The notes beneath the pieces are model-generated. The model was given only the letters and a program-made list of their open reading frames with translations, was not told the DNA's origin and made no database searches. Shown here in pieces: positions 1,158 through 45,149 of a stretch of DNA of 46,711 nucleotides. Within the stretch, counting starts at the first letter, position 1, and each line of letters starts with the position of its first letter. Source of the DNA: a virus. The position numbers were made by a program, and so were the translations under genes. Location of the stretch: the IMG/VR virus record IMGVR_UViG_3300045243_000017, positions 1 to 46,711 of that record. The stretch is one strand, 5' to 3'.

Positions 1158-2918
1158 TCATCCCCCCATTTTTTTATAAAGGTACATCACAACCGGCCAC
1201 TTTAAATGGCCGTATTCCTTTTGTGTCGCTTCTTTCGCCTTTTCCCACACGGGCCCATTGGCCACATGGTTAATGGCTTCGGTCAATTGCTCGTTGGTGA
1301 ATTGCTCCGCTCCACCATCCGATTCATAAGCGGCCAACAATGATTTGATGTCAACGTCCCCCGGCTCACCTTCCCGAGAGTTCAATATACCCATAAAGGT
1401 TTTCAAGTGACCAATGATTCCGTTAAGTTTGGCTTCAACGGCATTCGCCTTTTTCTTGGGAGCGGTCGAAAGAGGTTTATCCCCGGGCTTCTTTTCCGGC
1501 TCTTGTCCCGGTTCCGGCTCTTCCTTGAGTTCGTCTGGATTCAATCGAGAGTCATCGGTATCAAGAGGCTTCTCAAGAAGATTCGCATGGTTACACCGTT
1601 CGCGAAACTCCAAATCTGTAATCTTATTGGCTTGAACCGCCCCAAGTAATCGGTTGAACTTCGAGGTTTTCACATTCTCTTCCCCTTCCGCGGAAAGAAC
1701 CCTCAATGGCTTGAATCCCGTTTCCAAGTCATCGGGGATAAAGCCAAAGAGTTGTTGGCACCGGTAAGAGGCTATCTTGAGAAGTGGTTCCCGAAGCTTC
1801 TCCCTCACATCACTTTCAACCATGCCGTTATAAACTTCAAAGTCGCCTTCATCGGTCGAGGAAAGGCCAGACAACGAAATCCCGAAAAGCTTCGTCATGG
1901 GCATTCGCATATCACCGCAAATCCCAATTCTAAATTGAGCCATCATTTCAGGAATGCCCGAGAAGGTTATGGTTTTGTGGTCGAAGTCGTCTTCGGCATC
2001 CATCACCAAAGCTTTTTGGAAGTTCTTGATTTGATTGGCCAAGTTGACCCGAGCTCGAACGTTAGCTTGGCCAACGGGGGTTAAGAGGGAGTTGAGAAGG
2101 TTCTTGATCTTGTAAACGTCAATCTTGAATTCGTCCAATACTTCAAAGGCAACGTTTTGGCTCTTCAAGAACTGATTGATTCCTCGAACGAGGATCTCAA
2201 GTTCTGAAAGTCCCCATCCCCTTAAGCGGGGGCGAATGAATGAGGGTGGGTCAATTCCAATCAAAGGCATGACGCGCGACTTGTCCACCGAGACATTGTA
2301 ATAACGATAAGCCTTGACGTTCTCAATGGCGATCGACGGGTCATATTGACCGGTATCGTTTACGTCCCAAAACAATTCCCAAAGGTCGGCGGCTTTGAAC
2401 TCAAGAGGGCTTCCTGGTCGTATCGCCTCGATGTCCAATTCGGTCTTTGGGTCTTGGTCGGTGAGAACAACAATACCCCCGCCACCAAAGCCACGAGTTT
2501 TTGACATGGCTCGACCGGCGACCGCCAAATCCTTTTTCAAAGTCATTGTTCTCTGGAGTTGCGAGATTTGCTTTTCATCGAGTTGTTCGGTCTTAATCTC
2601 GATTCCACCGCGGAGCCCATCGGAGACCGGGACATCACAAATGGTTCGAACCAATCCGATTTCGGCTATTGCGTAAGAAATGAGTTGGCGATTGTTCGAG
2701 AGAAGGTAATACCGAAGATTGTCAAAGAGGGTGTCCCATTGGGAGAGTTCTTGGCCACCACCTTGACCGGCAAATTGAGGAAGCCCCATTGGATTGAACG
2801 GAACTATTGGAACGGCATTTCGAAGTTCTTGTGTGTCTTCGAGAGAAATGGTTTTGTTATCGATGGAGAGGCTTACCGGTTCACCTTGGGAATTAAGAAT
2901 CAAGCCAGGTTGGGTCAT
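1158..2918 (-). CDS. Portal protein (DUF1073 / Acb1-like N-terminal family)
   Basis: A 586-residue protein forming, by family knowledge, the dodecameric portal through which DNA is packaged and ejected. Family hallmarks include the N-terminal WDTLFDNLRYYLLSNNRQL region, the VRTICDVPVSDGLRGG segment near residue 90, a conserved RGFGGGGIVVL stretch near 143 and MTKLFGISLSGLSSTDEGD near 345-363. Residues about 465-500 are a Pro/Glu/Lys linker. The C-terminal WEKAKEATQKEYGHLKWPV segment resembles a short motif I have seen at the ends of other phage structural proteins. The ATG at 2918 has a GGAAGG Shine-Dalgarno formed by the end of TerL. It lies directly downstream of TerL, as expected. Confidence 0.9.
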   Translation of the reverse strand: MTQPGLILNSQGEPVSLSIDNKTISLEDTQELRNAVPIVPFNPMGLPQFAGQGGGQELSQWDTLFDNLRYYLLSNNRQLISYAIAEIGLVRTICDVPVSDGLRGGIEIKTEQLDEKQISQLQRTMTLKKDLAVAGRAMSKTRGFGGGGIVVLTDQDPKTELDIEAIRPGSPLEFKAADLWELFWDVNDTGQYDPSIAIENVKAYRYYNVSVDKSRVMPLIGIDPPSFIRPRLRGWGLSELEILVRGINQFLKSQNVAFEVLDEFKIDVYKIKNLLNSLLTPVGQANVRARVNLANQIKNFQKALVMDAEDDFDHKTITFSGIPEMMAQFRIGICGDMRMPMTKLFGISLSGLSSTDEGDFEVYNGMVESDVREKLREPLLKIASYRCQQLFGFIPDDLETGFKPLRVLSAEGEENVKTSKFNRLLGAVQANKITDLEFRERCNHANLLEKPLDTDDSRLNPDELKEEPEPGQEPEKKPGDKPLSTAPKKKANAVEAKLNGIIGHLKTFMGILNSREGEPGDVDIKSLLAAYESDGGAEQFTNEQLTEAINHVANGPVWEKAKEATQKEYGHLKWPVVMYLYKKMGG

Positions 2919-2921
2919 TTA

Positions 2922-4337
2922 CTACCTTCCGTAATTTAATCCAAAGGCCGCGGCCATACCTTCGTTCACATCAACGATTGAACCGCCGCCGGTCAAGTCA
3001 TCAAAAGCCAATCCCGCCGCATCAACAATATCATCGTGAGAATATTCTTTGTCATCCTCGGAGAAGTTCTCAAACTCTTGGAACATTTCATCGTTCCAAT
3101 CCGCCCGAACAACACTCACGTTGCCATATTCGCATTGGCGAGAAAACGGCTTGGCCCGGACGGCTTTCTTGGTCGATACCGATATCGCCTTCACATCGAA
3201 CCCGGCCAAGAGTTTCACAAAATCATCGGCTTCTTTAACGCCGGCGCTCCCCGGGTCCTGATATCCCCTGATTCTAACACCTTGCCCGTCATGTTGTGCA
3301 ACGGTTTTAATCAGGCGTTCGACTTTGCCAGGGCTTCCACGTTCTGATTTCAAATCCGCAATGACATAAGTTCCATTTGGATAAGCATAAATCTTAATTC
3401 CCCGTGTCCAATCAGGATCCCGGTTTCCTTCGCTTGGCTCGGTCGCCGCCCTATCCCATGCCCGGCAAACCGCCGACCACCCGCCGGGAACCGTGTCGAT
3501 AACTGGAAACCATTGCCGCCTAAAGAAACTCCCCGCCGTGGCCCGAATGTTCCAATTACCGCGGTAAAGCCTTTCAACGTCCACATGGCTCATGGAAAGC
3601 AATGTGGCTTTATAACTCGGGTCGTCCTTCATCAAGATTTTGTTGTCTTCAAGCCGGGCGGGGATAAAGGTCAACGACTTGGGGAGAATGTGACTTCCGG
3701 TTCCGACCTTCTTGTAAATTTCCTGTTTGCTGGAGCCCCAAATGAATTCATCCTTTTGGCGAACGAAGTATCGAAGCTTGCCGGACCTGGATTTGATGGG
3801 GTAGCCCGTTTCCTTATCAATCCACCAATCGATGAATGATCTCACCCAGGAATCGGGGTCGGGGTTGGTTGTCGCGCGAACTCGCCCGGGGGTTCCAGCT
3901 TGGGAGCGGTTTCGGCTCATCATGTACATGAATTGGTAAAAGGTGAAATGCGTGAGTTCGTCAAAACCAATGTGGGGAATCTGGGAGCCCTGCCAATCGT
4001 GGACGGAACCTTCTTGTTCTAACCCGTCAAACCTTACTCCGAAGCCGGAAGGGAATTTCCATTTGAGGTATGTCTCGTGCGGCGTTCCTCGAAGAAAAGG
4101 GTAAATCTTTCGGCTTGTGTCCCATAATCCGCCGGTGTTGCGAACCTGTTTATTGTTTCGCCTAAATATAACGGATTCAAAGTAGGGATTGTCATAATGT
4201 CGCAATGGGTCCAAGAGTAATCCGAAAGTTTTGGAACCTCCAGCGGCACCCCCGAAAATGCAAATATCAGCCTTCGAGGATAGGAAGGCGGTTTGTGGGC
4301 CGGGTTGGGGGCCGAACTCGATAAGTTCTTCATTCAT
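2922..4337 (-). CDS. terL: Terminase large subunit
   Basis: The packaging motor ATPase and headful or site-specific nuclease. With the ATG at 4337 it is 471 residues. Walker A GGAAGGSKT is at 29-37 and Walker B IGFDE at 123-127. The RNase H-like nuclease acidic residues fall in AWDRA (D295), QDPGSAG (D361) and HDDIVDAAG (435-436). A longer frame starts with TTG at 4379, but I prefer the ATG because it overlaps the stop of the upstream small ORF as ATGA. A weak GGAAA lies upstream. It is followed after 3 bases by the portal gene. Confidence 0.95.
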   Translation of the reverse strand: MNEELIEFGPQPGPQTAFLSSKADICIFGGAAGGSKTFGLLLDPLRHYDNPYFESVIFRRNNKQVRNTGGLWDTSRKIYPFLRGTPHETYLKWKFPSGFGVRFDGLEQEGSVHDWQGSQIPHIGFDELTHFTFYQFMYMMSRNRSQAGTPGRVRATTNPDPDSWVRSFIDWWIDKETGYPIKSRSGKLRYFVRQKDEFIWGSSKQEIYKKVGTGSHILPKSLTFIPARLEDNKILMKDDPSYKATLLSMSHVDVERLYRGNWNIRATAGSFFRRQWFPVIDTVPGGWSAVCRAWDRAATEPSEGNRDPDWTRGIKIYAYPNGTYVIADLKSERGSPGKVERLIKTVAQHDGQGVRIRGYQDPGSAGVKEADDFVKLLAGFDVKAISVSTKKAVRAKPFSRQCEYGNVSVVRADWNDEMFQEFENFSEDDKEYSHDDIVDAAGLAFDDLTGGGSIVDVNEGMAAAFGLNYGR

Positions 4338-5065: not shown

Positions 5066-5338
5066 CTAGTGTAATTTAACAACCGCTCCGCCCATTCCTT
5101 TCGAAATCCTATTCTCGTACCGCTTAACCTCTTCGTTCATTTCCACTTCTATGGCCTTCTCGTATTCCTCCATGGTGATTATCCCCTTGGCAAACAAGAG
5201 TTTGACCAAGACGGCGTTGTCGCACATTGCGGCATTTACGCCAACCCTCAAATGTTTTGGGCTTGTGTCCTCGGAACCCATATTCATTTCCATGGCAACG
5301 CCCGATTGCATGGCGTGAAGCGCTTCTTGATAAGTCAT
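5066..5338 (-). CDS. Conserved small phage protein, function unknown
   Basis: 90 residues. The middle carries SPKHLRVGVNAAMCDNAVLV followed by a KGIITMEEYEKAIEVEM segment, a combination I associate with a widespread uncharacterised phage protein. The ATG at 5338 overlaps the upstream PDF-like gene's stop as ATGA. No catalytic motif, membrane segment or signal peptide is visible. Confidence 0.7.
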   Translation of the reverse strand: MTYQEALHAMQSGVAMEMNMGSEDTSPKHLRVGVNAAMCDNAVLVKLLFAKGIITMEEYEKAIEVEMNEEVKRYENRISKGMGGAVVKLH

Positions 5339-5529
5339 GATTCCCCCTTTTCTTTCTTCAAAGCCTCAACTACATCTTCGACCAAATGGTCAATAAACAG
5401 GATCCCGTCCATATGGTCAATCTCGTGAAGGATACACCGGGCCATGACTTGATGGAAGAATTGAAATTGAGTTCGCCCTATTAACTTACAATTCCGTTCA
5501 AAGTAAAGTAAAACCGGGTTTCGCCTCAT
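5335..5529 (-). CDS. Truncated peptide deformylase-like protein
   Basis: 64 residues that align only with the C-terminal part of peptide deformylase. The motif III block ARCILHEIDHMDGILFIDHL (30-49) carries the HExxH-type catalytic Glu and both zinc-ligand His. Motif I (GxGLAAxQ) and motif II (EGCLS, with the third zinc ligand Cys) are absent, and full-length enzymes are about 130-170 residues. ATG at 5529 overlaps the TerS-like stop as ATGA, so the short form looks like a real, coupled gene and not an accidental fragment. Without motif II, normal deformylase activity is unlikely. Confidence 0.7.
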   Translation of the reverse strand: MRRNPVLLYFERNCKLIGRTQFQFFHQVMARCILHEIDHMDGILFIDHLVEDVVEALKKEKGES

Positions 5530-7307: not shown

Positions 7308-7618
7308 TGGGCGCTCTCCAATTCTTTCATTTTGTGAAGTGCCATAGATAAATAAACATGAGCGGCACCGGTTGACGGAACTTCCGACCTAACTTTATAC
7401 AAGTAGCGATTCAGGGCATCCCACCGTTCCTCCGCCTTACCAGAGGCAAGAAGGCGGGCTTGGATTTCGGGCAACAGATCGTGTACCGTTACGTTTACGC
7501 CCTTGTAATTTTCGCACTCGTTCCTACCACCCGGATTATGTATGGTATGCCCTCCGTCACACTGGACACGTCCAACCACGCTATCCGGCCCCAAGGCTTC
7601 GCTAACGGGTTCACTCAT
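7304..7618 (-). CDS. Hypothetical protein
   Basis: 104 residues; starts MSEPVSEALGPDSVVGR and contains CDGGHTIHNPGGRNEC near the N-terminus. The second half is helical (VHDLLPEIQARLLASGKAEE). ATG at 7618 overlaps the methyltransferase stop by 8 bases, placing it in the same operon. No family recognised. Confidence 0.6.
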   Translation of the reverse strand: MSEPVSEALGPDSVVGRVQCDGGHTIHNPGGRNECENYKGVNVTVHDLLPEIQARLLASGKAEERWDALNRYLYKVRSEVPSTGAAHVYLSMALHKMKELESAQ

Positions 7619-9266
7619 TTGATTTTCCTTTCTTTTCCATTTTCAGGATCCCTTCCACTAATTCAATTCGCTCACCTATCCACCGTATAACAGGAACCGC
7701 CATTGAGTTTCCCAATGCCTTGTACCGCGGTCCATCCGGTTGGCCTTTGGCTTTCCCGGGGATTAAGGTGTAATCATCGGGGAATCCTTGAAGGCGTTCG
7801 CACTCCCGGGGCGTTAGTCGGCGAACCATTCCCATGACCGCCGCATCATCCGCCATTCTTCCCGGCCCTTGTCCTGGCATGGCCCTTAAAGTCGGAGCGA
7901 CCACGGCTTGACCTTGAGCCCCATCAATCGTATGGGAAACATCTTCGGCCACCCCGTGGCCATTGGCGCTCGTTTGAGCCGTCCGGATGGAAGCAATAAC
8001 CGGCGTTCGATTCGACCCACTATCGGCGCTTCCAAGCGTTGGTGACTTGTCTTCCTCGATTCCCAATCCGCCGGCTTTGGAGCCCTGACCGCCTTTGAAG
8101 GCCACGAGTGGCGTTGGGTCTCCGCTCTTGTGTTGGGACATAAGAGAAGCCACGGTATCTTCCGAAGGCTTTCCACTTCCAGTTCGACCAATGGCGGCTT
8201 TAAAAGCCATTGGAACATTTCCTCCGCCCGTTCCCATTCGAGAAGAAAGAGTTGGAACCACATCAACCTCTTTGATTCTTGAATCGTTTGGGTGATTCTC
8301 CAAAATAGAAGTTGCTTGAGGATTTATTATTAATCTTTCTTCTTGGCTTATGTTGTCGGAATATGGTTTAGAAGTTAAAGGCGGTATCACTAGGTTTTGG
8401 CATTCATCACCCGAGGGGCCACCGGTTCCCTTCGCCCATTTCTTCGTTACGGCCGGGGAAATCTCGCTTATGAAGGCTCCCGAGTTGTCGAGGTCGGTTG
8501 TGCGGAAGCCACCATCTTGAGAACTTCCTCCAAGGGTTCCGGCAACTTCTTTCCCCGCCGGTCGGCTCGGCGGAGAATTCCCGCACAAGCTGTACCGCTC
8601 AAAGAGTACCGCCGAAGATATTTGAGAAAATCTTCTTCGCTTTTGAATTGCGCTCTCGTTCGTGGGTTGTCCCAACTCTCCAAGATATCCGACAACGAAG
8701 ACGCGACGCCTTCGCTGTGGAACTCCAAAATATTGAGCGTCAAGGATTCTCCATGCGAGACCATACCCGAGTTCCGAAAGTCCAGCGAGGAAGGTGTCAA
8801 AATCGTTTGTTTGGGCTCCAACGGCGGTGTCATAGGCGAATGTTTGTCCATCTTTCCAAAAGTATTCACACTCACCCGGTTGGAAACTATCCTTGACATC
8901 TGACCAACTCGACAAGACCCCGGGGACGTTCTCCCAGACCACCCACTTGGGGCGTTTTCGGTCAAGAATCTTAAGAAATTCAAGGGCCAAGTTACCATTC
9001 GGAGAATCCAACCCCGCTCTAAGTCCCGCAATCGAGAAGGATTGACAAGGGGTTCCCCCGATAAGAACGTCAATTGGTCGCTCATTGAATGCCGCCTTTT
9101 CATAAATTTTTGTCATGTCCCCAAGATTTGGAATTCCTGGGTAATGGTGAGCCAAGACACGATTTGGGAAAGCCTCGATCTCGGAGAACCAAGCAGCCTT
9201 CCACCCCAACGGGCCCCAAGCCACGGTCGCCGCTTCTATCCCCGAACATACCGAGCCGTAAATCAT
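7611..9266 (-). CDS. DNA (cytosine-5) methyltransferase
   Basis: 551 residues from the ATG at 9266, which overlaps the adenine methyltransferase stop as ATGA and has an AAGGGAA Shine-Dalgarno. Motif I is SVCSGIEAATVAW near residue 5. The catalytic loop is GGTPCQSFS (Cys at about 74), ENVPG is at 112-116, QRRRRVFVVGYL is motif VIII, RLTPRECERLQGFPDDYT is motif IX and ALGNSMAVPVIRW is motif X. The long Gly/Ser-rich segment between VIII and IX is the target-recognition region, enlarged as in many phage enzymes. It would protect phage DNA from host restriction. No cognate endonuclease is next to it. Confidence 0.93.
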   Translation of the reverse strand: MIYGSVCSGIEAATVAWGPLGWKAAWFSEIEAFPNRVLAHHYPGIPNLGDMTKIYEKAAFNERPIDVLIGGTPCQSFSIAGLRAGLDSPNGNLALEFLKILDRKRPKWVVWENVPGVLSSWSDVKDSFQPGECEYFWKDGQTFAYDTAVGAQTNDFDTFLAGLSELGYGLAWRILDAQYFGVPQRRRRVFVVGYLGELGQPTNESAIQKRRRFSQISSAVLFERYSLCGNSPPSRPAGKEVAGTLGGSSQDGGFRTTDLDNSGAFISEISPAVTKKWAKGTGGPSGDECQNLVIPPLTSKPYSDNISQEERLIINPQATSILENHPNDSRIKEVDVVPTLSSRMGTGGGNVPMAFKAAIGRTGSGKPSEDTVASLMSQHKSGDPTPLVAFKGGQGSKAGGLGIEEDKSPTLGSADSGSNRTPVIASIRTAQTSANGHGVAEDVSHTIDGAQGQAVVAPTLRAMPGQGPGRMADDAAVMGMVRRLTPRECERLQGFPDDYTLIPGKAKGQPDGPRYKALGNSMAVPVIRWIGERIELVEGILKMEKKGKSNE

Positions 9267-10105
9267 AAGAGTTTCCCTTGGGGTTGATTCCTGTAAGCCG
9301 CATCGTTCATCCAAAGAACTTCCGTTCGAGGGCTTGCCCCATCCCCAAACGTCTTTCGGTTTATCCAAACAAAACCTTTATAAAGTTCATCGTAAAGTTC
9401 CGAACGATAACCCGAGATAATAACCATTCCTTTTAGGTCCCGGACCACCCGAGCCAATTCGGTATGTTGTTCGTCTGTCATTTCGTGGTTGTATCCATGG
9501 AGGTTCCCATGAATTCGTTTTCGACTTTTGAAAACATACGGTGGGTCAAGATAGTGAAGAACATCGGGGCCGTCATGTTGCTTTAATATTTCCGTGGCTT
9601 CGCGACATTCGATGATAACGCCTTTGAGGCGTTCGGTCATGGCTTCCAATGCCTCGGGGTAATTCGTCCAATCATGCGCCGGCGTAGTTCCGCTTCGATT
9701 TGAATTGGCTCGAAAGCCTGTGGCCACTCCCGTCTTGGTACTATCCGAACCAAATCCCATGAATGATCGAATGATCAAGCCCCGAGCTCGGTCGATGTTG
9801 TCTTCTTCAAAGTGAATCGACTTCATGAACTCCACTCGTGAATACGGGGTCAGTTCAAGACGGCGCTTTAATTCGGCGGCGTTGACCTGGTTCCTCAATA
9901 TCTTGAAGAGGTTGACCACATCTTGATCTAAGTCGTTGTAAACCTCTGCATAAGCCCGGCGCTTTTGCATCAAGACCGAGGCAGCCCCGCCATAAACCTC
10001 GGTGTAAATCCTATGCTCGGGAAAGTGTTCGATTATCCATGGAGCCAATAACCACTTGCCACCATGCCAACGAAGTACCGGTCTCGTGGGAATCGTTGGG
10101 TTCAT
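9263..10105 (-). CDS. DNA N6-adenine methyltransferase (D12/Dam class)
   Basis: 280 residues. WHGGK (13-17) and TEVYGGAASVL form the AdoMet-binding motifs, and DPPY (187-190) is the catalytic motif of the D12 class. The product methylates adenine, often in GATC, but the target cannot be read from sequence. A TTG two codons upstream (10111) is possible; I chose the ATG at 10105 because it overlaps the PP-loop gene's stop as ATGA. It sits in a block with a second methyltransferase and a PAPS-reductase-like protein. Confidence 0.92.
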   Translation of the reverse strand: MNPTIPTRPVLRWHGGKWLLAPWIIEHFPEHRIYTEVYGGAASVLMQKRRAYAEVYNDLDQDVVNLFKILRNQVNAAELKRRLELTPYSRVEFMKSIHFEEDNIDRARGLIIRSFMGFGSDSTKTGVATGFRANSNRSGTTPAHDWTNYPEALEAMTERLKGVIIECREATEILKQHDGPDVLHYLDPPYVFKSRKRIHGNLHGYNHEMTDEQHTELARVVRDLKGMVIISGYRSELYDELYKGFVWINRKTFGDGASPRTEVLWMNDAAYRNQPQGKLL

Positions 10106-11890: not shown

Positions 11891-12279
11891 TACTTCTTCT
11901 CCCAAAGTGGAATAGCAACAAAAGCTTGACGATCAAAACCTCCTTCTTTCCAGTATTTCCAAACGGCTTCGGTTTTCAACTTATCCAGGGTCAAGGTTAA
12001 TGTTTCGCGAGTATCCTCGACATCGAGAACAAAAAGCTTTAACCCCATCGGCTCCAACGCCTCGATGACATAAGCGGAGATTCCAAAGGCGTTCAAAATA
12101 TTGTGGCGGTGTTTCATAAACCTCTTCAAGAAAAGGATCCCGGTGTAAGGGTCGAACTTTCCAGCGAAGCGCCATGACCCCTCTTCGGGAAGCCAAACAT
12201 GAACTTGGATATCGGGGTCGATGTTCTCAAGACTGACCTTGACCCCGCCTTCAAACTCTCTCTTTTGAACTTGGCTCAT
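11890..12279 (-). CDS. Hypothetical protein downstream of HerA-like ATPase
   Basis: 129 residues. The N-terminal half is beta-rich (VSLENIDPDIQVHVWLPEEG, FDPYTGILFLKRF). The second half contains VEDTRETLTLTLDKLKTEAVW, a pattern compatible with a small alpha/beta domain. ATG at 12279 overlaps the ATPase stop as ATGA, so it may be its partner. It has no resemblance to NurA that I can see. Confidence 0.6.
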   Translation of the reverse strand: MSQVQKREFEGGVKVSLENIDPDIQVHVWLPEEGSWRFAGKFDPYTGILFLKRFMKHRHNILNAFGISAYVIEALEPMGLKLFVLDVEDTRETLTLTLDKLKTEAVWKYWKEGGFDRQAFVAIPLWEKK

Positions 12280-14051
12280 AGGTCAAGAACCTCTTTGTTT
12301 ATTTTGAATCGCCCGTCATGCTCCTTAATCGTTAAGCCAAGCCCGTTCACCTTCGACATTGCGTTTCTAAAACTTGGGCTCTCGGGAGAATAGTTCGTTG
12401 GAGTTTTCCCGGCAATTTCTAATTTGCTCAAAGAACCGTTCTGGTTTGCCAAAAGAACTTGCATGATCTCTCGTTCGGCTTTCCCAAACCGAGCCATGAA
12501 AACGTCAAATAGATTCTCGTTCCATTCCTTGTTTGAAGGATCCCCCACAATATTGGCCGCCATGTCGAAGTTGAGAAGCTTGATCATCTTTCCTTCTCCC
12601 CCGACTATGCCTTGGCTCCTGACCTTTGAAAGAGCGTTTCTAAAAGAAGGTGATTCGGGAGCGTAATTGGCTCCGACCGCCACTTGAACTTTGGTGAATT
12701 CTCTTTCACCGCGCGGAGCCAAGAACTTCAAGATAGCCTTTTCAGCCTTTCCATAAATAACTTGCCCCGCCTCTTCTTTAACTATTGATGGTAAATTCGT
12801 AACTTGTGCCGCAATTTTATTTATTGGCTTCCAATTTAAAGGTGGCACAAATGGATATACCTTCTTTTCCAATGCTTCGGTCGGCCCTGAATGTTTCTTG
12901 TAAATTTCGTTTGAGACTTTTATAAAACCTTCTTGCATTTCCACCATTGCTTTTTTGATTTCAGCGATACGGCGTCGATCAAATTCCTTCGTTAGATTCT
13001 CCGCTTGTCGGTGGTAATCTTCCCGAAGCTTCTTAATTTCCTTGTCGGGTAATTCCGATATGGGCTTTGGCGCTGGAGCCCTCTTTACTTCGGCGAGTTC
13101 TCGGGTCAATTGAATATTCCGCTTCTTCAAATCCTCCAAGGTTCGAACCTCTTCTTGGGCTTCCTTCGGCAAATCCTTGAACTTGTCGAGGATAGCTTTA
13201 ACCTTGGCGGTCGGGGCCGGCGCTTTCATAACTCCATGGCCAGAACCGGTCGGCTTCGTGTCGGGCATTAATATTTGAGCCAACTTAATGTCATGGCCAA
13301 GAGCGGGGCCGTAGGCGTAGAACTGACCCGGGGGTAACCGCCTCAAACTTTGAATTTGTTCTTGGCTCGTGAATTCCAATTCTTTGGCCGCCCTGACCCG
13401 GTCTTGGTCTTGGTACATCACTCCAACAATCTTATTCCCCAATTCCGCCGTGAGGTTTTTAGAAATCTTCGCCATGCGTTGTGTGGCTGGAATAAAACCA
13501 ATCTTTCGTTTCCGGCCCTTGGCGCTTACTTCCGTCATGGCCCCCAAAGCTTCGGAATCACCTTGGCCTTTTTCCGGTGCGTAGTTGTGGGCTTCGTCCA
13601 CCAAAAGCAAACGAGGCCTCCAAAGGTTCCGCGGTGCATCCAACCAAGTTTCCAAGAAGATTCGAACAAAGCGGTGTTTCTCATGAGGTTTCAATTCGTA
13701 AAGGTCGATGATACAACTTGCGTTTTCCTCCAAAATCTTCTTGCAAAGAATGGCCGCCAAGTGAACTTGTGTCGGGAAATCCCCGCCGGGCCCGGCCAAT
13801 AAGAAGTCATGGCGCTTCCGAAGCGGGGCAAAGTCCCCTTCGTTATCCAATACCACTTGGGGGAGCAAGCCGGAAGTCGCTTCAAGTATCTTGAAAAGGG
13901 CGTAAGTCTTTCCACCCCCGGAACTGGCAAAAACCCCCAATCGGCTTTCAATCAACTTATCAATGTCCAAATCCAAATAAGCGTTCTTCCCCATTCCGAA
14001 TGGTTGTTTACCTTGATACGGCAATAGATTTCCAATTTTTACTTTTTTCAT
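12276..14051 (-). CDS. HerA/DUF87-like ATPase with tandem C-terminal repeats
   Basis: 591 residues from the ATG at 14051 (GAGAAGG Shine-Dalgarno, ATGA overlap with the previous stop). Walker A ASSGGGKT is at 42-49, an acidic LDNEGDF follows, and Walker B LLLVDEAH is at 148-155. KGRKRKIGFIPATQR holds the sensor and likely arginine-finger region. This is the HerA-FtsK pattern of DNA-pumping ATPases. A charged coiled coil covers about 300-365. Two related repeats follow (about 434-494 and 523-586), each with PESPSFRNA.SKV, probably winged-helix DNA-binding modules. No NurA nuclease is found. A role in DNA movement, repair or counter-defence is possible. Confidence 0.8.
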   Translation of the reverse strand: MKKVKIGNLLPYQGKQPFGMGKNAYLDLDIDKLIESRLGVFASSGGGKTYALFKILEATSGLLPQVVLDNEGDFAPLRKRHDFLLAGPGGDFPTQVHLAAILCKKILEENASCIIDLYELKPHEKHRFVRIFLETWLDAPRNLWRPRLLLVDEAHNYAPEKGQGDSEALGAMTEVSAKGRKRKIGFIPATQRMAKISKNLTAELGNKIVGVMYQDQDRVRAAKELEFTSQEQIQSLRRLPPGQFYAYGPALGHDIKLAQILMPDTKPTGSGHGVMKAPAPTAKVKAILDKFKDLPKEAQEEVRTLEDLKKRNIQLTRELAEVKRAPAPKPISELPDKEIKKLREDYHRQAENLTKEFDRRRIAEIKKAMVEMQEGFIKVSNEIYKKHSGPTEALEKKVYPFVPPLNWKPINKIAAQVTNLPSIVKEEAGQVIYGKAEKAILKFLAPRGEREFTKVQVAVGANYAPESPSFRNALSKVRSQGIVGGEGKMIKLLNFDMAANIVGDPSNKEWNENLFDVFMARFGKAEREIMQVLLANQNGSLSKLEIAGKTPTNYSPESPSFRNAMSKVNGLGLTIKEHDGRFKINKEVLDL

Positions 14052-14611
14052 TCGCCCTTCTCCCCTCGCTCTGAATCGTTGAAATAAGTTTCCGACACAA
14101 TCGCATTCTTCAAGTCTCTCAAATTCCAAACCTTCCCCACTTTACGAATGAGCCTCTTCTCCAGTTCAACCATTCGTTCTTGAACCGCGGTGTTTCGATA
14201 ATCCATCCGTTGGCCTTCCCCGGTCGGGGCGTTCGTCTTTGCTTCGTGAACCGGCCCCGGTATCAACTGCAAATTGAGAGGGCTCAAAATCGCTCCAAAA
14301 GGTTCGTACCCTGGAGCGTTCCTTCCCCTGATATGGTCAAGCTCATACCTTCTCAAAGTCTTGACCGGTATCATGGTCGCCTCGTGGACTTCCTGAATGA
14401 TCAAAACTCTCATGTGTCTTAAGACCCGCTCTTCGTTCCCCCGCTTGGTGTCGCCCGTCTTTTTCAACTTTCCTTCCGACTTCAAGCCCTTTTGCGGGAA
14501 CCCGGCGTTTCGGTGCATCCCAAACCCGCCACGGCCTTTGACTTTATGCGCTTCCAAAGGATGAAAGTTCGCCGCCTCTTGCGTTGATAAATTATTGAAG
14601 GAATGGTTCAT
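14048..14611 (-). CDS. HNH-like endonuclease domain protein
   Basis: 187 residues. The central part has RRYELDHIRGRN followed by LSPLNLQLIPGPVHEAKTN, matching the DH...N...H pattern of HNH nucleases but without zinc-binding cysteines. The N-terminal third is basic and Gly-rich (HKVKGRGGFGMHRNAGF). ATG at 14611; the end overlaps the HerA-like gene as ATGA, so nuclease and ATPase may be co-produced. The fit to HNH is partial: the three motif positions are present, but the family is uncertain. Confidence 0.55.
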   Translation of the reverse strand: MNHSFNNLSTQEAANFHPLEAHKVKGRGGFGMHRNAGFPQKGLKSEGKLKKTGDTKRGNEERVLRHMRVLIIQEVHEATMIPVKTLRRYELDHIRGRNAPGYEPFGAILSPLNLQLIPGPVHEAKTNAPTGEGQRMDYRNTAVQERMVELEKRLIRKVGKVWNLRDLKNAIVSETYFNDSERGEKGE

Positions 14612-17167: not shown

Positions 17168-17470
17168 TTAGCTCCCTTTTCTTTTTCTTCGGCGGGGTGT
17201 GTTTCGAGCGTTCTCCCGGCGAGTACAAACTCTCAAATTTGAACGCCTATTGTCCAAACGATTCCCGTTCAAATGGTCAACTTCCAACCACTTGGCCGGA
17301 TTCAAGATAAACCGGTGCATATAAATTCTTTGGTGTCCTTTCCCAACTCTTTGATTATTTGAAGCGTATCCAATTTTCATCAAATGCCACCGCAAAAGAG
17401 AAACGGCGTAAAAATCTTGATCATCCACCAAAGCGACTTTTCTTGAATTTGAAAGCTTTATTACGGCCAT
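17168..17470 (-). CDS. HNH endonuclease (HNH_3 type)
   Basis: 100 residues. IYMHRFILNP followed by EVDHLNGNRLDNRRSNLRVC and ENARN is the HNH_3 pattern of phage homing-type nucleases: VDH supplies the first His, and the NRRSNLR Asn/His-equivalent region follows. ATG at 17470 has an AAGGA Shine-Dalgarno. It is a free-standing gene next to the DnaA-box cluster, a common insertion point for mobile HNH genes. No separate DNA-binding repeat (AP2 or NUMOD) is seen. Confidence 0.88.
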   Translation of the reverse strand: MAVIKLSNSRKVALVDDQDFYAVSLLRWHLMKIGYASNNQRVGKGHQRIYMHRFILNPAKWLEVDHLNGNRLDNRRSNLRVCTRRENARNTPRRRKRKGS

Positions 17471-17509
17471 TTTCTATCCTTAGTGGAATACATAAGTTCC
17501 GATACCAAA

Positions 17510-17725
17510 TGTGGATATGTGCATATCTTTGGGGATAACTTGTCAGTTTATCCACAATATCAACATCACTTTTAAAAATAAGTAAGTTGTCCACACTATC
17601 CACAATTCAATCCACCGGAAATCCACACCCTCACCTATATGGAGAAAAACGACTTATCCCCGCTATCCACACCCCTAACCCTACTACTCTTCTTTAAATT
17701 TTTAAAAATCTTAAAAGAAGAAAGA
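17510..17725. other. Candidate replication origin: DnaA-box cluster plus AT-rich stretch
   Basis: Within the 265-base gap, 9-mers close to TTATCCACA occur at 17548-17556 (perfect, + strand), 17587-17595 (TTGTCCACA), 17596-17604 and 17663-17671 (both CTATCCACA), 17619-17627 (AAATCCACA) and 17654-17662 (TTATCCCCG). On the minus strand they occur at 17510-17518 (ATATCCACA) and 17530-17538 (TTATCCCCA). Next to them, 17689-17725 is almost purely A/T with an imperfect inverted repeat (CTTCTTT...AAAGAAG), suitable as an unwinding element. The density and the neighbouring AT tract match bacterial and plasmid DnaA-dependent origins. Confidence 0.75.
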
Positions 17726-17735
17726 CGTTTTGAAT

Positions 17736-17960
17736 TTAGCCTTTAAGCTTTTTCAACAAAAGGCCATAAACCACCGAGTTTTCCATCATGAGTTCTTCCA
17801 AAGCGCAAACAACTTGTGAATGACTCAAATTGACATTGATGTCATTACTCATTTGGCGGATGCACTTGTCCACCGCTTGGGCCAATTTGATTGGTCGCGA
17901 AACGGAACTCGGGGCCGTCTTCTCCCCCTCTGATTTCTTTACTTTCTCTTTGCTTGCCAT
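17736..17960 (-). CDS. Small hypothetical protein beside the origin
   Basis: 74 residues: a basic N-terminus, then SRPIKLAQAVDKCIRQMSND and SHSQVVCALEELMMENS. The strand-helix-helix order is compatible with a ribbon-helix-helix DNA-binding protein, but the match is weak. ATG at 17960 lies within the HNH gene upstream (22-base overlap) behind GGAAAGAAG. Its 3' end abuts the AT-rich part of the DnaA-box region, so an origin-binding or copy-control role is possible but unproven. Confidence 0.55.
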   Translation of the reverse strand: MASKEKVKKSEGEKTAPSSVSRPIKLAQAVDKCIRQMSNDINVNLSHSQVVCALEELMMENSVVYGLLLKKLKG

Positions 17961-18625
17961 TCTTTCTTCCTTTCGATTAAATATTTGGCGAATCGCCTTC
18001 TAAATTCTTCTTCCGTCATGTTCTTCTTCATCATGTTACATCTATTGCAACACCCAACCAAATTAGTTGGGCTTTCCCCGCCGCCTAAATCAACCGGCTT
18101 CTTGTGATCAACCGTGAAAAAGTCGTGTCTTGATCTTTCAAAATTCTTTGGACCTTCAAAGACGGTTTTGATTTCACAATAAAAACAAATCCCATTCGAC
18201 TTTATCCAAACGATTCCACGAACAATGGGGCCCAATACGGCTCTTTTCCTTTTCCCTTTAAACTTTGATTGTTCATATTGCTCACTTGAAACGGCTTTGA
18301 CCTCTTCCAATGTCCAAGCCTCATTGCCGACCGAATCACCCCGCTTCGAACGTTCCGGCTTCTTGTTGGCTGTTTGAATCATCTTTAACTTTATTTCGTC
18401 TGGAGTATTTTCGTTCCAATACCGGCGGAACTCCTTTCTATTCCAAACGTCAACACTCACCCACATATCCGGCCAAATTGAATCCTTGAGAACGTTTCCG
18501 ATTGGTTTGTAGCCTTGGGGCTTTACGGTAACCGTCTTGCCTTTGAGATACCAAACCAACTTACCTTTTTGATGGAAGGTCTCCCCATCGGCTTTTAGAA
18601 ACCTTCCATCGAATAAGGAACTCAC
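17939..18625 (-). CDS. HNH endonuclease with C-terminal nuclease domain
   Basis: 228 residues from a GTG at 18625, which overlaps the RecT-like stop as GTGA with AAGG upstream. An ATG at 18685 would overlap by 64 bases and is less likely. The C-terminal part has NGICFYCEIK, FTVDHKKPVDLGGG and SPTNLVGCCNRCNMMKK, the complete Cys4-HNH signature (two CxxC pairs, DH, N and a catalytic-region Lys). Residues 1-120 are of unknown fold. In this place, right after the annealing protein, it may act in recombination or be a mobile gene. Confidence 0.85.
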   Translation of the reverse strand: MSSLFDGRFLKADGETFHQKGKLVWYLKGKTVTVKPQGYKPIGNVLKDSIWPDMWVSVDVWNRKEFRRYWNENTPDEIKLKMIQTANKKPERSKRGDSVGNEAWTLEEVKAVSSEQYEQSKFKGKRKRAVLGPIVRGIVWIKSNGICFYCEIKTVFEGPKNFERSRHDFFTVDHKKPVDLGGGESPTNLVGCCNRCNMMKKNMTEEEFRRRFAKYLIERKKEWQAKRK

Positions 18626-19497
18626 TTCATACGCCTTATTGTTTCCTCGCACATTTGAGCCATAGCGTCCAAATCCCTGACACAATCGGTATAAAGTTTA
18701 TATTTCTTAGACAAGGTATCGTACCCCGCCGAATTCAAAGCCTCGGTCAAGGCGATAGGAAACGATTGGACAATCTTATCCATTGGCGCTTCATCCTTGG
18801 ATTCCGTTTTTGGAGCGGGATCCTTGGAGACCACTTTGATTCCGGTCGCTTGGGCAACCTCAACTTCGCTCAAGACAACCGCATCTTTAATGTCGATAAT
18901 TTCGGATTCATCCGGCATTGAAAGACCACAAATCGAAAGAGTTCCGCGGCGCTTGGCTTTGGTCTCGCACTTCATTATGGCGTTCGCCCGTTCTTGGCCT
19001 TTGAGGTCGTAATCAACTTTCTTGTTCTTGCCGTTGACAACTTCCCATTTTTGGCCAACCAGGTATAGAACACCACTCGCCATGTCCGTCTTTCCATACT
19101 TGTCTTTCATGGTTACGTCCACGGTCACGGTCTTTTCTTCTTTATCGAATGACCGCATAAGTGATGTTACCCCCACTCCATGGATTTTCCGAAGTTGTTC
19201 GGCGCAATCCTTTTTGGCGTAGAGCGTCATTTTCCCATCCAATTGAATGTATCCAAAGGGTTGGGTCAACGGATTGAGCATGAGCGACTTACAAACGTCC
19301 AAATAAAAATTGTAACGTTGCTCGGGCGACAAGACCGCCAAGTCGCCACCAATCAAAACACTCTCAAGGGGGGAAAGCTTCATCCCTTCTTTGACCTTTG
19401 AGATTTCAACGGCTGGAGCGGGGGGGGGCACTATGGCCACCCCCTTATTGTTCTTCGGGCGCTTGGCCTTTTTCCTCTTCGTTTTTGCCGGTGCCAT
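18622..19497 (-). CDS. RecT-like single-strand annealing protein
   Basis: 291 residues. The central LSPEQRYNFYLDVCKSLMLN and PFGYIQLDGKMTLYAKKDCA blocks, followed by QLRKIHGVGV, match the RecT-type annealing proteins of phages. GQERANAIMKCETKAKRRGT is the conserved later block. The N-terminus is Lys/Pro-rich and the C-terminus (about 215-291) is a variable helical tail. It would pair single strands for recombination-dependent replication or repair. ATG at 19497 shares its A with the preceding TAA. No exonuclease of the RecE or lambda Exo type is adjacent. Confidence 0.82.
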   Translation of the reverse strand: MAPAKTKRKKAKRPKNNKGVAIVPPPAPAVEISKVKEGMKLSPLESVLIGGDLAVLSPEQRYNFYLDVCKSLMLNPLTQPFGYIQLDGKMTLYAKKDCAEQLRKIHGVGVTSLMRSFDKEEKTVTVDVTMKDKYGKTDMASGVLYLVGQKWEVVNGKNKKVDYDLKGQERANAIMKCETKAKRRGTLSICGLSMPDESEIIDIKDAVVLSEVEVAQATGIKVVSKDPAPKTESKDEAPMDKIVQSFPIALTEALNSAGYDTLSKKYKLYTDCVRDLDAMAQMCEETIRRMK

Positions 19498-20153: not shown

Positions 20154-20224
20154 GTTGTTCTCCTAGTTTTATTTAACTACCCGACAATTAATAACATAAT
20201 ATTTTAATAATACAATAACAAAAA
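20154..20224 (-). promoter_or_regulatory. AT-rich leader with possible promoter
   Basis: A 71-base gap, more than 75% A/T, precedes the recombination genes. On the minus strand TTGTTA, 17 bases and TATGTT can be read as a weak sigma70 promoter. The very high A/T makes chance matches likely. An AGGAG Shine-Dalgarno closes the region. Confidence 0.35.
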
Positions 20225-21305: not shown

Positions 21306-21326
21306 CGAGGGGGGCTTATTCCCTCG
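21306..21326 (-). terminator. Weak hairpin at the end of the DUF7715-like gene
   Basis: CGAGGG (21306-21311) and CCCTCG (21321-21326) form a 6-bp stem across the stop codon region; downstream on the minus strand the sequence is A/T-rich but has no T run. The rest of the gap (21178-21305) contains a near-repeat GCCGGTTGATC/GCCGGTTAATC and no gene that I can support. Confidence 0.3.
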
Positions 21327-21747
21327 GGAGTTCACCCTTGGCCTTCGGGTTTACCTTATTCGTTTTCCTGTTTGCCAATTTATTTCCACGTTTCTCAATG
21401 ATCATTCCAACATCGAACGTTGACGCATAAATCAACAAATCTTTCGTTTCGAGGGTCACATCTTCTTCGGTCATGATCTTGTTTTTGATGTAATCATCAT
21501 AACCTTCACGAACGAGCGCCCTCAATTCCGCCATTGTCATATCTCTTTGGATAACCTTCATGGTGGTTGTCGCTCCATGGCTCTTCAAACCAATCATGGC
21601 TCTCATACAACCGCACCCACCATCAATGTCGTTTCGGTCACGGTCGCAAGCCCCACCACCCATATAAACCGGGTCGCCTTCTTCGGCGTGAGAAAAATCA
21701 CTTTTTCTTTGGCCTTGAGTTTCTTTTGTCGCCACTAAAAGTTTCAT
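21316..21747 (-). CDS. DUF7715-like protein
   Basis: 143 residues from the ATG at 21747 with AAGGAG upstream. It begins MKLLVATKETQGQRKSDF, followed by ACDRDRNDIDGGCGCMRAM and LKSHGATTTMKV. I know this pattern from an uncharacterised family in actinobacteria and phages, which I recall as DUF7715. The Cys/Asp cluster (GGCGCM) may bind metal. The C-terminal end is basic and probably flexible. Function unknown. Confidence 0.65.
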   Translation of the reverse strand: MKLLVATKETQGQRKSDFSHAEEGDPVYMGGGACDRDRNDIDGGCGCMRAMIGLKSHGATTTMKVIQRDMTMAELRALVREGYDDYIKNKIMTEEDVTLETKDLLIYASTFDVGMIIEKRGNKLANRKTNKVNPKAKGELPRE

Positions 21748-21767
21748 GTCCAACTCCTTTTTAGAAT

Positions 21768-22097
21768 TTACCAACACATATAATCGGAACGTATCCCAAC
21801 TTTGTTATCCGGCAAAATCTTTCGTTTCGCTATCGAGTTACCGCCGTGAACGTACTCCAACCAATAACAAACATCGAATTCTTGCTCACGGGTACAAACA
21901 ACGGTGACGCTCTTATAAGGAACTTTGTCTTTGAAGATTGGACAAATGGTTTCACTCTTCGCCACAATCATTCCATCACCCTCGGGAAAGATAACTCCTT
22001 TCTTGGTAAAGATGGGGTCGGGCCCCCAAACGTCTTGCTTAGTTACCCGTTTGGGTTCCCGAAAAGTCGGTTCACTTACAAGTATTATTGGTTTCAT
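21768..22097 (-). CDS. Hypothetical protein
   Basis: 109 residues from the ATG at 22097, which overlaps the preceding stop as ATGA. Beta-rich (MKPIILVSEPTF, GVIFPEGDGMIVAKSETI, SVTVVCTREQEFDV) with a C-terminal DYMCW. No family recognised. Early operon position suggests a host-interaction role, which is inference only. Confidence 0.6.
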   Translation of the reverse strand: MKPIILVSEPTFREPKRVTKQDVWGPDPIFTKKGVIFPEGDGMIVAKSETICPIFKDKVPYKSVTVVCTREQEFDVCYWLEYVHGGNSIAKRKILPDNKVGIRSDYMCW

Positions 22098-26853: not shown

Positions 26854-27978
26854 TTAGTAAGTTAATCTTGTCGCCCAAATCGAACTTCTCAAAATGCAAT
26901 TTGTTCTTGTGCCCGTGTAATTGACATAAGTGTCCAAATAAATCACATAGTTTGAAGTTACCGTCACGTTTATTTCAGGAACAACAACTTGGAATCCCGA
27001 GGGCCCCGCCGGGACATTTATCATTGATCGAGCCACACCCCCATAAAGCGGATAAACAATTCCGCCATTTACAGAAATATTACCGCCCGTGACCAAAGTG
27101 GCCGGAACCGAACTGGTATTGTCTCCATTGGTACTCGCCCAAGCATAAGACAATCCCAATACAGTTATGGAAGCGACATCATTACCGGCGGCAACCATTC
27201 CCCCCACCGTCCAATTACCAGGGGAAAGCGTGATCGAATTACCCGACATTTGAACAAAACTATTCGTTTGAGTAGGAACGGCCGTGGCGGATTGAGAGAA
27301 AATGTAATTGGCCGGGGTATTAGTCATCGTAGGCGTTGGAGTAATGGTTGGCGTGTTGGTATTGGTCGAAGTGAAAGTCAAAGTGTTGGTGGGTGAGGAA
27401 GTCCAAGTGAATGTCGGGGTGTTGGTATATGTCGGCGTATTAGTGAAAGTAGGTGTTCGAGTATTGGTAAAGGTGTTGGTATTAACCGGGGTGAAAGTGT
27501 TGGTTCCAGCCGGTAGGGTATTGGTATTGGTGGGCGTGTTCGTGAATGCGGTCGTATTTGTAGGCGTTGGCGTAAATGTGTTTGTGTAAATAGTCGTATT
27601 AGTGAAAGTATTAGTCGGAGTGAATGTCGGCGTAGAAGTGAAGGTGGGAGTAAAAGTCAAAGTGTTGGTTGGCGTGAAAGTGGGTGTCACCGTCCAAGTT
27701 GGCGTATCCGTCCCGCGCATGGCAATTTGTCTCCAAACGCTTCCATTCCATTTATAAATGGCGTTGGTGTCGCTCGTGTCCCATTCATCCCCGATTTGTA
27801 ATCCGACCGTGGATTGGGCTTTCATTTGGGCAAACGTTCCGGTAATGGCGGCGCTTGGGATTTCAAGGTCGCTCGGGAGTTGAGGACCAAGGCTTCTTAA
27901 TGTCTTCGCCTGTAATGCGGTGACAAGCAAGATTGAGAAAATAGCCCACCAACCGATAAACTTAATTACTCTTTTCAT
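26854..27978 (-). CDS. Secreted Thr/Pro-repeat protein with C-terminal beta domain
   Basis: 374 residues. Signal peptide about 1-24 ([20 protein letters not shown], ending ALQA). Residues about 40-85 resemble a small module also seen at fibre starts ([20 protein letters not shown]). Residues 92-225 are a low-complexity repeat of TNTPTFTPT units. The C-terminal 150 residues form a beta-rich domain with [23 protein letters not shown] at 27978 has AAGGGG. The combination of Sec signal, stalk-like repeat and beta head suggests a surface-displayed or secreted adhesin-like protein. A virion fibre is an alternative, but a signal peptide would be odd. Confidence 0.75.
27304..27705 (-). repeat. Thr/Pro/Asn low-complexity repeat region
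   Basis: Imperfect tandem units encoding T-[NPT]-T-[FP]-T, visible on the + strand as repeated GTGTTGGTATTGG- and GTGAAAGT-like words. Synonymous changes between units show it is old or diverging, not a fresh expansion. Such tracts can gain or lose units by slippage. Confidence 0.7.
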
Positions 27979-27990
27979 GTCTAACCCCTT

Positions 27991-29187
27991 TTAATAAATG
28001 AATCCAGCCGGAACCGGCAAAGTCACGTTTCTTATGTTTGTTGTTCTTGTAAGCGTTCCACCAAAATAATTTAAAATTTGATTTGAACTTCCCGAAGCGT
28101 CTATATCCGTTATGTTGGCGTTTGATATTTGGCAATTTGCGAGAGTTCCGGTGTAATTAAGATATGCCGTTGACGACCCCGTTACACATTTCAACGAAGA
28201 CGGATTCAATCGATCGGATACAAGTGTAAAACTATTGGACACCGCTAAAGTAGTTCCAACCCCTAAAGAGGACGTGACACCTGCCGGAATATTGTAGTCT
28301 GTACAGCTAAATTGAAATGGGCCGATAATATTTTTTGCGGCTGCGAGAGTTATTCCGGTATAAGAAACGGCGCCATCGCAAATAAAATTACTTTGGATAG
28401 TTAGACCCGATGAAGTCGTTGTTGCGTTATTAACTCTCTGCCAATGAATACCTGGAAAATTACAAGTGTAAGTCCCGGTAAGATTTAATGTTGCGCCTGA
28501 CGAATTAATCGTTCCCGCAATATAAGAAGCGGGTCCGCTTGTCGCTGTGATATTTTGAATAGTTATACTTCCAGATGTGTTTAAGTTGACTTTACTTGTT
28601 CCGGTTCCGGTAAAATTACCGGTCCAATTTCCGCTTCCGTTCATTACAAAAGTCGTGGTTCCAGTTAGCGCACCGTTCGAGCTAAGATTTCCTCCGACAG
28701 TTATAGAGTTTCCGTTGACGATATTATTCGCGTTCCCGAAACTAACCGAGCCAGAAATAGTCCAGGCGTCCCCAAGGGTATATGTTTGTTGAGCCGCTTG
28801 AGGACCGATAAACGTACCCGGGAAAACAAGTCCCTGAGATGTCATAGTTGAGTTGACGATAACCGAAAGAACGCCGGTCCCGATCAAGGTCATGCCGGAA
28901 CCCCATATAACATTTCCGGAAACCGTTAGAGTTTGACCGGCAGAAAAAGTTAAATTTGAAACGTAACCGGTGGCCGTCACGGATTTACAAACAGCCGTTC
29001 CAACGTCCACCGTAATCGGGCCGGACGAAGCGGTAACGGCCACATCATCGGCAGCCGTTGGGGTAGCCGCTCCAACCCACGAAGCTGTACTCGACCAATT
29101 TCCACCGCCGGCCGCCGCGATAATCGTGGTTGCGTTTCCGATGGAATATAAAAAAAGGAATAGGACTAAACCTAAAAAGCCCTTCAT
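27991..29187 (-). CDS. Secreted beta-helix-like protein
   Basis: 398 residues. Signal peptide [20 protein letters not shown]. The mature N-terminus has [19 protein letters not shown] and [15 protein letters not shown], a pattern common at the start of bacterial secreted parallel beta-helix or G8-like proteins. About 300 residues of short strands rich in Ser, Thr, Asn and Gly follow ([24 protein letters not shown]), ending in [14 protein letters not shown] at 29187 overlaps the previous stop as ATGA. Probably a secreted or surface-attached protein; a carbohydrate-binding or depolymerase role is possible but no catalytic site is seen. Confidence 0.75.
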
Positions 29188-30464
29188 CGTTTTTGCTCAC
29201 TTGGAAGGTCGATTGAATATTGACCCGTGGCCATCATGTTTGTAACGGGACCCGAATTGAAAAATATCAAAGGTCGGTTAAATCCGCCCGAGAATATCGG
29301 AGCGCCAATATTAAGCCCAAGATTTCCTCCGCCGATTGTGACAGGGCCAAGAAGCGTCACCGTTCCATCGGTCACATAGAAAGGCCCGGCGGTTGAAGCC
29401 GTGGTGTTTGTCACAACCAGTTCTCGAAGAGTGTTGTAATAACCAGCCGTAGCGGCAACGATTGTGTTGGCACCCGAGGCGGAAGAGTTCACAATGAATC
29501 CAAAAGCGCAAGGCGTTGGAGAAGGCGTTGTCGTATAGTTCGGAGTTGGTGTAATGGTTGGAGTGTTGGCGCTTGAAGATCCTCCACCGGGCGAAGGCTG
29601 TTGCATGGGGGCCCAATAAAATTGGCCATGAGGAAGAGGGGTAATGGTTCCGGTCGGAGTAATGACGACCCAATTTTTTACATCAATAGCGTCATAAGTG
29701 GCAGTAGCCATGGGAGTGGCCGTAGCCGAGCCGCTTGGAGTCCAAGTTGACGTTGGAATAGTTGTGAAAACTGGAGTTCTTGTAGGCGTAGCGGTCGGCG
29801 AGTTGGTTGGCGTAGGACTTGGAGTTTTAGTTGGTGTATTTGTCGGAGAATTAGTTGGTGTTTTTGTTGGAGTATTAGTCGGCGAATTTGTGGCCGTGTT
29901 CGAGATTGTACCCGTGACCGTAAATGTATTCGTGAGAGTAGGAGTTTTGGTAGGAGTGTTGGTAGGAGAATTGGTTGGGGTCACGGTTGGTGACAAAGTA
30001 GGCGTATTGGTTGGGGTGTTGGTGGGTGTGCTGGTACTGCATGGGTTCACGAAGGCGGCGTAAGTAGTCGGGGCCGAACAAGTCAAATAGGTGGCGTTCT
30101 CTTGGGCAATGATGATGATGTAGCCCGAATAAGTCGAGGATGGAACGGTTACCGTCCTGGTTATCGTGTTGAGAGCGTTGCCATTGTCGAAGAAGGTAAA
30201 GCCCCGGTCGCCGGTCGTACAAAGCATGGTTGACCCGAGATAGGAAGAATAAGCCGACCCATCCGCGGTGGTCGCCGCCGAAAACAAAATGTCGTAACTC
30301 ACGGTTCCAAAATCCCCCGCGTCGCGAACCTTGAAAGTCACAGAAATGGAAGCCCCAGGGTTTCCACAATTGGGAGCCCCGGTAATCGTAATGGCCGACA
30401 CTTGCGCCATGGATGGAATCGCAAGACCTAAGAAAATAAATAAAAATGCCAATAGTTTACGCAT
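29184..30464 (-). CDS. Secreted Thr/Pro-repeat protein
   Basis: 426 residues from the ATG at 30464 (GGGGGGA Shine-Dalgarno). Signal peptide [20 protein letters not shown]. Then a beta domain with paired cysteines ([20 protein letters not shown], related to cohesin/Ig-like secreted domains), a [15 protein letters not shown]-type repeat at about 143-256 and a C-terminal beta domain ([19 protein letters not shown]). It is the first gene behind a sigma70-like promoter and leads an operon of exported proteins. Similar Thr/Pro stalks occur in secreted proteins of several uncultured bacterial lineages. Confidence 0.75.
29697..30038 (-). repeat. Second Thr/Pro/Ser repeat region
   Basis: About 114 codons of [19 protein letters not shown] units; on the + strand seen as repeated GTTGGTGTATTTG and GTAGGAGT words. 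It differs in residue choice (Lys, Ser) from the repeat at 27304-27705, so the two were probably not copied from each other recently. Confidence 0.7.
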
Positions 30465-30511
30465 TGAATCCCCCCATCTTTGAATCCCGTCCCCACGGGT
30501 ATGACAAGCCA

Positions 30512-30540
30512 AGAATACTTTGTTTCGTGGCCTTTGTAAA
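30512..30540 (-). promoter_or_regulatory. Sigma70-like promoter for the exported-protein operon
   Basis: On the minus strand TTTACA (30535-30540, 5 of 6 matches to the -35 consensus), 17 bases, then TATTCT (30512-30517, 4 of 6). It lies 48 bases upstream of the ATG at 30464. A small CCCGT-CCCC-ACGGG hairpin (30487-30500) sits in the predicted leader. Confidence 0.6.
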
Positions 30541-45087: not shown

Positions 45088-45149
45088 TTGAGACTCCTTT
45101 CAAATTACCGTTCTTGCGAACGGCTGGTAAATCCACAACACTTCAAATC

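Follow-up and report, generated by a model that had tools for sequence, protein, structure and literature searches.

The gap at positions 17471-17735 of IMG/VR record IMGVR_UViG_3300045243_000017, a 46,711-base uncultured virus sequence that was analysed over its whole length and is referred to here as the window, spans 265 bp and is among the largest intergenic gaps in a genome that is roughly 92% coding according to our gene list. Nearly all genes lie on the minus strand, as do the two ORFs that border the gap (Table 1). Between 17510 and 17671 the gap holds 11 nine-mers that differ by at most two mismatches from the DnaA box TTATCCACA. One of these is perfect (17548+), five carry one mismatch (17510-, 17530-, 17587+, 17596+ and 17663+) and five carry two, and a departure from the consensus is seen in most boxes of the gap. 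Seven boxes point rightward and four leftward, and three pairs abut with zero gap (17548/17557, 17587/17596 and 17654/17663).

Table 1. Features of the gap and of the genes discussed in the text (positions in the window).
Feature	Position	Strand	Remarks
Whole oriC-like intergenic element	17471-17735		Gap between HNH ORF and 74-aa ORF
Left sub-cluster	17510-17538	-	Boxes at 17510 (ATATCCACA), 17518 (ATATGCACA) and 17530 (TTATCCCCA)
Tandem pair with perfect box	17548-17565	+	TTATCCACA and ATATCAACA, no gap
Tandem pair	17587-17604	+	TTGTCCACA and CTATCCACA, no gap
Weak box	17619-17627	+	AAATCCACA, from the scan at up to two mismatches
Unwinding-proximal tandem pair	17654-17671	+	TTATCCCCG and CTATCCACA, no gap
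C-rich 9-bp spacer	17672-17680	+	CCCCTAACC; within the published spacer limit
Five DnaA-trio-like triplets	17681-17695	+	CTA CTA CTC TTC TTT; bottom strand 3'-GAT GAT GAG AAG AAA-5'
A/T-rich tract with imperfect inverted repeat	17688-17725		Candidate DNA unwinding element
HNH ORF	17168-17470	-	Left border of gap
74-aa orphan ORF	17736-17960	-	Right border of gap; helical (low-confidence model), no family
Single-strand annealing protein, Bet/ERF/Rad52-like	18622-19497	-	Fold searches, homologs
HerA-like ATPase	12276-14129

The clustering of DnaA boxes in the gap is far beyond chance. The weighted 200-bp cluster score was 19, against a maximum of 10 among 1000 order-3 Markov genomes and of 8 when the gap itself was dinucleotide-shuffled 5000 times, and none of the other loci scored (~2.8 Mb, from phages or with prophages) reached 10. 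As the whole window contains 139 matches at up to two mismatches where 130 are expected, an ordinary number, it is the clustering that is special. Comparable repeat clusters or other iteron arrays were not found elsewhere in the genome, an Rfam search gave no match, and the phages and plasmids searched yielded only short near matches to the gap, one of which (in MT835491) covers three boxes. The left sub-cluster matched at 91% over ~35 bp a DnaA-box cluster of Listeria. This Listeria cluster is dense (L366, ~2600-3040) and lies upstream of a gene that we take from its sequence to be rlmH.

At its right edge the cluster continues in the order TTATCCCCG-CTATCCACA-CCCCTAACC-CTA-CTA-CTC-TTC-TTT-AAATTTTTAAAAATC. 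In the bacterial basal unwinding system (BUS), a single DnaA box or a pair is followed by a spacer that does not exceed 16 bp and peaks at 10-13, and then by at least three DnaA-trios, which have a central A on the 3'-5' strand and of which GAT is the commonest (PMC8287927). A box with at most two mismatches, an optional tandem box, a spacer of at most 16 bp and at least three NAN trios define the module, and the 17654/17663 boxes form one with their 9-bp spacer and five trios, the leading two of which are CTA (3'-GAT-5'). A search of both strands of the genome with a stricter form of the published rule returned a single match in the window, at the same module (17654-17695), and none of 300 shuffled genomes contained a match whose box had no more than one mismatch. 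The A/T tract by the trios, which ranks second in the genome for lowest stability over 30-40 bp, is an adjacent and easily melted region of the kind found at oriC-type origins, and its inverted repeat (17688-17721) is imperfect, with 16-nt arms at 81%. Since spacer, trios and A/T tract come after tandem boxes, these elements stand in functional order, and at the level of sequence the tandem box, spacer, trio-like repeats and candidate unwinding tract match the published BUS order. The least stable stretch of the genome, at 20154-20224, is likewise A/T-rich and intergenic; it lies upstream of the 19497-20153 gene and has no DnaA boxes.

As in the BUS of Bacillus subtilis and other bacteria, tandem boxes, a short spacer, NTN triplets starting from CTA (3'-GAT-5') and an A/T tract follow each other in the same order and on the same strand. 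The element differs from these systems in that it is found in a phage and not beside dnaA, its boxes are more degenerate, its later triplets deviate (CTC, TTC) and its unwinding is a prediction. The gap is not linked to dnaA/dnaN or any other chromosomal oriC neighbour, the adjacent genes being the HNH and orphan ORFs, and is therefore not a chromosomal oriC. The best reading is that the element would work like a bacterial oriC with a BUS. The earlier note had described a dense DnaA-box cluster near 17510-17725 with one perfect box and most boxes in the same orientation, next to an A/T stretch with an inverted repeat, and this description was confirmed, the cluster exceeding all shuffles. Its proposal of an oriC-like DnaA origin gains from the BUS-order element, which had been missed, and loses from relatives without boxes and from a GC skew that turns elsewhere, two outcomes that the note itself had listed as refuting; on balance the proposal is supported in part.

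The phage groups with dwarf myoviruses related to phi1422. Its major capsid protein and that of Bdellovibrio phage phi1422 share 50% identity, and the ~45-kb genome and shared structural module are those of the phi1422/phiPLPE-like dwarf myoviruses. The closest contig, G001 (IMGVR 3300037104_000152), has late genes that are 44-77% identical. phi1422 is a lytic phiPLPE-like dwarf myovirus in a group whose structural modules are conserved and whose replication modules vary (PMC3391216); it resembles the present phage in its late module, genome size and capsid, but encodes a primase and two helicases and is without a DnaA-box cluster. Gene order across the window ends matches that of G001, except that one head gene is incomplete, which indicates that no more than a few hundred bases were lost and that the genome is almost complete; the absence of replication genes is therefore meaningful. 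Near both of its ends, G001 encodes Ala-Ala-Tyr/Asp/His repeat proteins (213-980, 1657-2661 and 45091-45504). A pattern-based scan by capsid of ~85,000 species (one genome each), which can miss some, found no prophage relatives; this fits a virulent lineage, and we infer a lytic lifestyle.

Genes for DnaA, DnaB, a family-A polymerase (PolA) or a VapE-type primase-helicase were not found in the window, and Pfam/PHROGs searches of the early proteins revealed no polymerase, primase, helicase loader or Rep. The statement in the earlier note that the phage has no polymerase, primase, helicase or Rep accordingly holds as far as domain and Pfam/PHROGs searches reach. One DNA methyltransferase matched phrog_864, labelled 'DNA primase', but its methyltransferase matches were stronger and the label was read as that of a fused or misnamed family. 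Several small early proteins have no assigned family, and any of them might hide an initiator. The annealing protein ties the module to recombination and is not a Rep, and by known function neither it nor the HerA-like ATPase is a replicative initiator. A NurA-like partner of the ATPase was not seen. Elsewhere in the window, a cytosine-type DNA methyltransferase gene (7611-9368), in whose product a long insert separates the conserved blocks, adjoins an adenine methyltransferase and a PAPS-reductase-like gene, a 64-aa ORF (5335-5529) matches phage peptide deformylase over no more than the C-terminal part of that enzyme (motif HEIDH) and is possibly truncated, an early-region ORF (21316-21777) strongly matches DUF7715 (PF24831), and the tail-region proteins at 26854-30512 bear long Thr-Pro-Thr-Asn repeats.

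No relative found through TerL or the capsid protein carried the box cluster, and neither the cluster nor a BUS match was present in 24 near-complete relatives or in phi1422. There is consequently no comparative conservation of box spacing, a check suggested in the earlier note, the boxes being absent from the relatives compared. One relative (G042) was rejected as a carrier of the cluster, its score of 13 arising only from a tandem hexamer repeat. A recognised replication gene is present in about half of the near-complete relatives: G002, G056 and G059 have a polymerase with a VapE-type protein, the polymerase of G002 being PolA, and others have DnaB-like or primase-like genes. Because these relatives carry replication genes of their own, the absence of boxes can be attributed to module exchange. 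Judging from presence and absence, the replication region would be an exchangeable part of the genome, in which a cis element here appears to replace a gene module. About half of the relatives were without every replication family tested and also without the cluster, so that a lack of enzymes alone does not imply a DnaA origin. Single-sequence queries with the annealing protein or the HerA-like protein found no close relatives. None of 103 loci with annealing-protein homologs had a cluster nearby, which means that gene and element do not move together.

GC skew was also expected in the earlier note to mark the locus. Instead, both the overall skew and that at third codon positions turn at 4.76 and 27.3 kb and not at 17.5 kb; they change sign at the borders of the early and late modules though all genes run the same way. 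Skew was therefore rejected as support for an origin at 17.5 kb. For an origin in a small genome whose genes run in a single direction, a skew minimum, which the element lacks, is supportive and not defining, and we regard the mismatch as neutral to mildly negative.

The combination of boxes and trios was investigated further in IMG/VR viral contigs, which were scanned for two adjacent boxes followed by CTACTA within 3-14 bp. This returned 35 contigs, compared to 26 for the scrambled control hexamer TCATCA, and the count alone is thus not much enriched. At least four good boxes lay nearby in 19 of the 35 CTACTA contigs as opposed to 2 of the 26 controls, and at least six in 11 as opposed to none. 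The 35 contigs fall into ~20 groups with few proteins in common. Host contamination as signalled by dnaA was rejected, no DnaA gene being found at the family cut-off in the 28 box-trio contigs tested; some of the contigs are of short length and might represent host DNA that was classified wrongly. One contig (L060) has the motif overlapping a replication-initiation (DnaD-like) gene, and another (L091) has it beside a DnaD-like loader gene, a link that supports origin function in phages. Both resemble the present phage in having tandem DnaA boxes and then CTA trios in a phage genome without dnaA, but their motif is within or adjacent to a helicase-loader gene, and no such gene was found in the window. 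L074, L061, L073, L083, L085 and L090, which have 6-15 good DnaA boxes as well as trio repeats, are candidates for DnaA-driven phage origins. The earlier note calls such origins rare in lytic phages, a remark that has to be qualified in that several unrelated phage contigs hold similar elements. A literature search, with most subscription papers outside its reach, found no published oriC-like phage origin.

We consider the gap at 17471-17735 to be an oriC-like, host-DnaA-dependent phage replication origin with a probability of roughly 0.7, a reading drawn from sequence comparison. Given its oriC-like layout in a phage without recognisable DNA-copying enzymes, the phage probably borrows DnaA from its host. 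Host DnaA would bind the box cluster, and a DnaA-ATP oligomer would grow from the 17654/17663 tandem boxes across the spacer onto the trio-like triplets, where it would open the adjacent A/T tract. The host helicase loader, helicase, primase and polymerase could then assemble at the opened tract, and the gap would serve as origin during infection. The Bet/Rad52-like annealing protein may later support recombination-dependent replication. We give even odds to the phage being virulent, having no initiator, helicase loader or replisome gene, and starting replication only via a compact, self-sufficient bacterial-type oriC.

Alternatively, the cluster could bind host DnaA as a decoy, or regulate it, in the manner of datA in E. 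coli and of the DnaA-box clusters in B. subtilis, and so slow host initiation or alter the nucleotide state of DnaA while the phage itself replicates by other means. The datA and DBC clusters also hold many DnaA boxes away from the chromosomal origin, but they are regulatory and to our knowledge have no trio-plus-unwinding element. That clusters outside oriC regulate initiation in bacteria (PMC5295017, on which the comparison with regulatory clusters partly draws) speaks for a decoy, as do the likeness of the left sub-cluster to the Listeria cluster upstream of rlmH and the several relatives without recognised replication genes that manage without a cluster. Nevertheless the element has both trios and an unwinding tract in phase with the boxes, for which a decoy would have no use, and an alternative origin or initiator was not found in searches of the window. 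We find this explanation unlikely. Distinctly less credible is a promoter region at which DnaA would regulate transcription of an operon running leftward from 17470. The gap does lie upstream of the HNH ORF and the co-directional genes that follow, and DnaA is a known transcription factor (PMC4447404). However, the only nearby sigma-70-like site (17354-17383) is inside the HNH ORF and no better than chance, and the number of boxes together with trios and A/T tract goes beyond what a promoter requires.

It is very improbable that the repeats are bound by a phage initiator, for instance an orphan early protein such as the 74-aa product, either with the likeness to DnaA boxes being secondary or in concert with host DnaA as at the P1 plasmid origin. 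The predicted, mostly helical nature of the adjacent 74-aa orphan (low-confidence model) and the DnaD-like loader gene with which other phages pair the box-trio motif are in its favour, but no Rep family or fold match was obtained and the repeats fit the DnaA consensus, and the trio pattern specific to DnaA, rather than a private iteron. The P1 origin, oriR, which the plasmid prophage uses, is phage-borne and combines boxes for host DnaA with a neighbouring A/T-rich region. It shares boxes and A/T-rich region with the present element, but needs its own RepA and iterons, whereas neither a Rep gene nor private iterons were found here. That a piece of host oriC was joined into the phage contig during assembly can practically be dismissed, for although the contig is metagenomic and the element absent from all relatives compared, two joins around 265 bp would be needed, both flanks are same-strand phage genes leading into late genes in synteny with those of G001, and the gap has neither dnaA nor dnaN nor rlmH as a neighbour.

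In the usual view, tailed phages bring at least an initiator or a helicase loader. A phage that relied on an oriC-like cis element alone would have its copy number tied to host DnaA-ATP. It would constitute a small natural test of what suffices for a bacterial origin, and would allow the trio rule to be tested away from chromosomes. Phage origins may in turn be searched for by means of the box-trio pattern seen in unrelated phage contigs. If it indeed has no initiator, helicase loader or replisome gene and starts replication only through this element, the phage would be one of several independent lineages that have adopted the origin grammar of their hosts and would therefore compete directly with the chromosome for DnaA.
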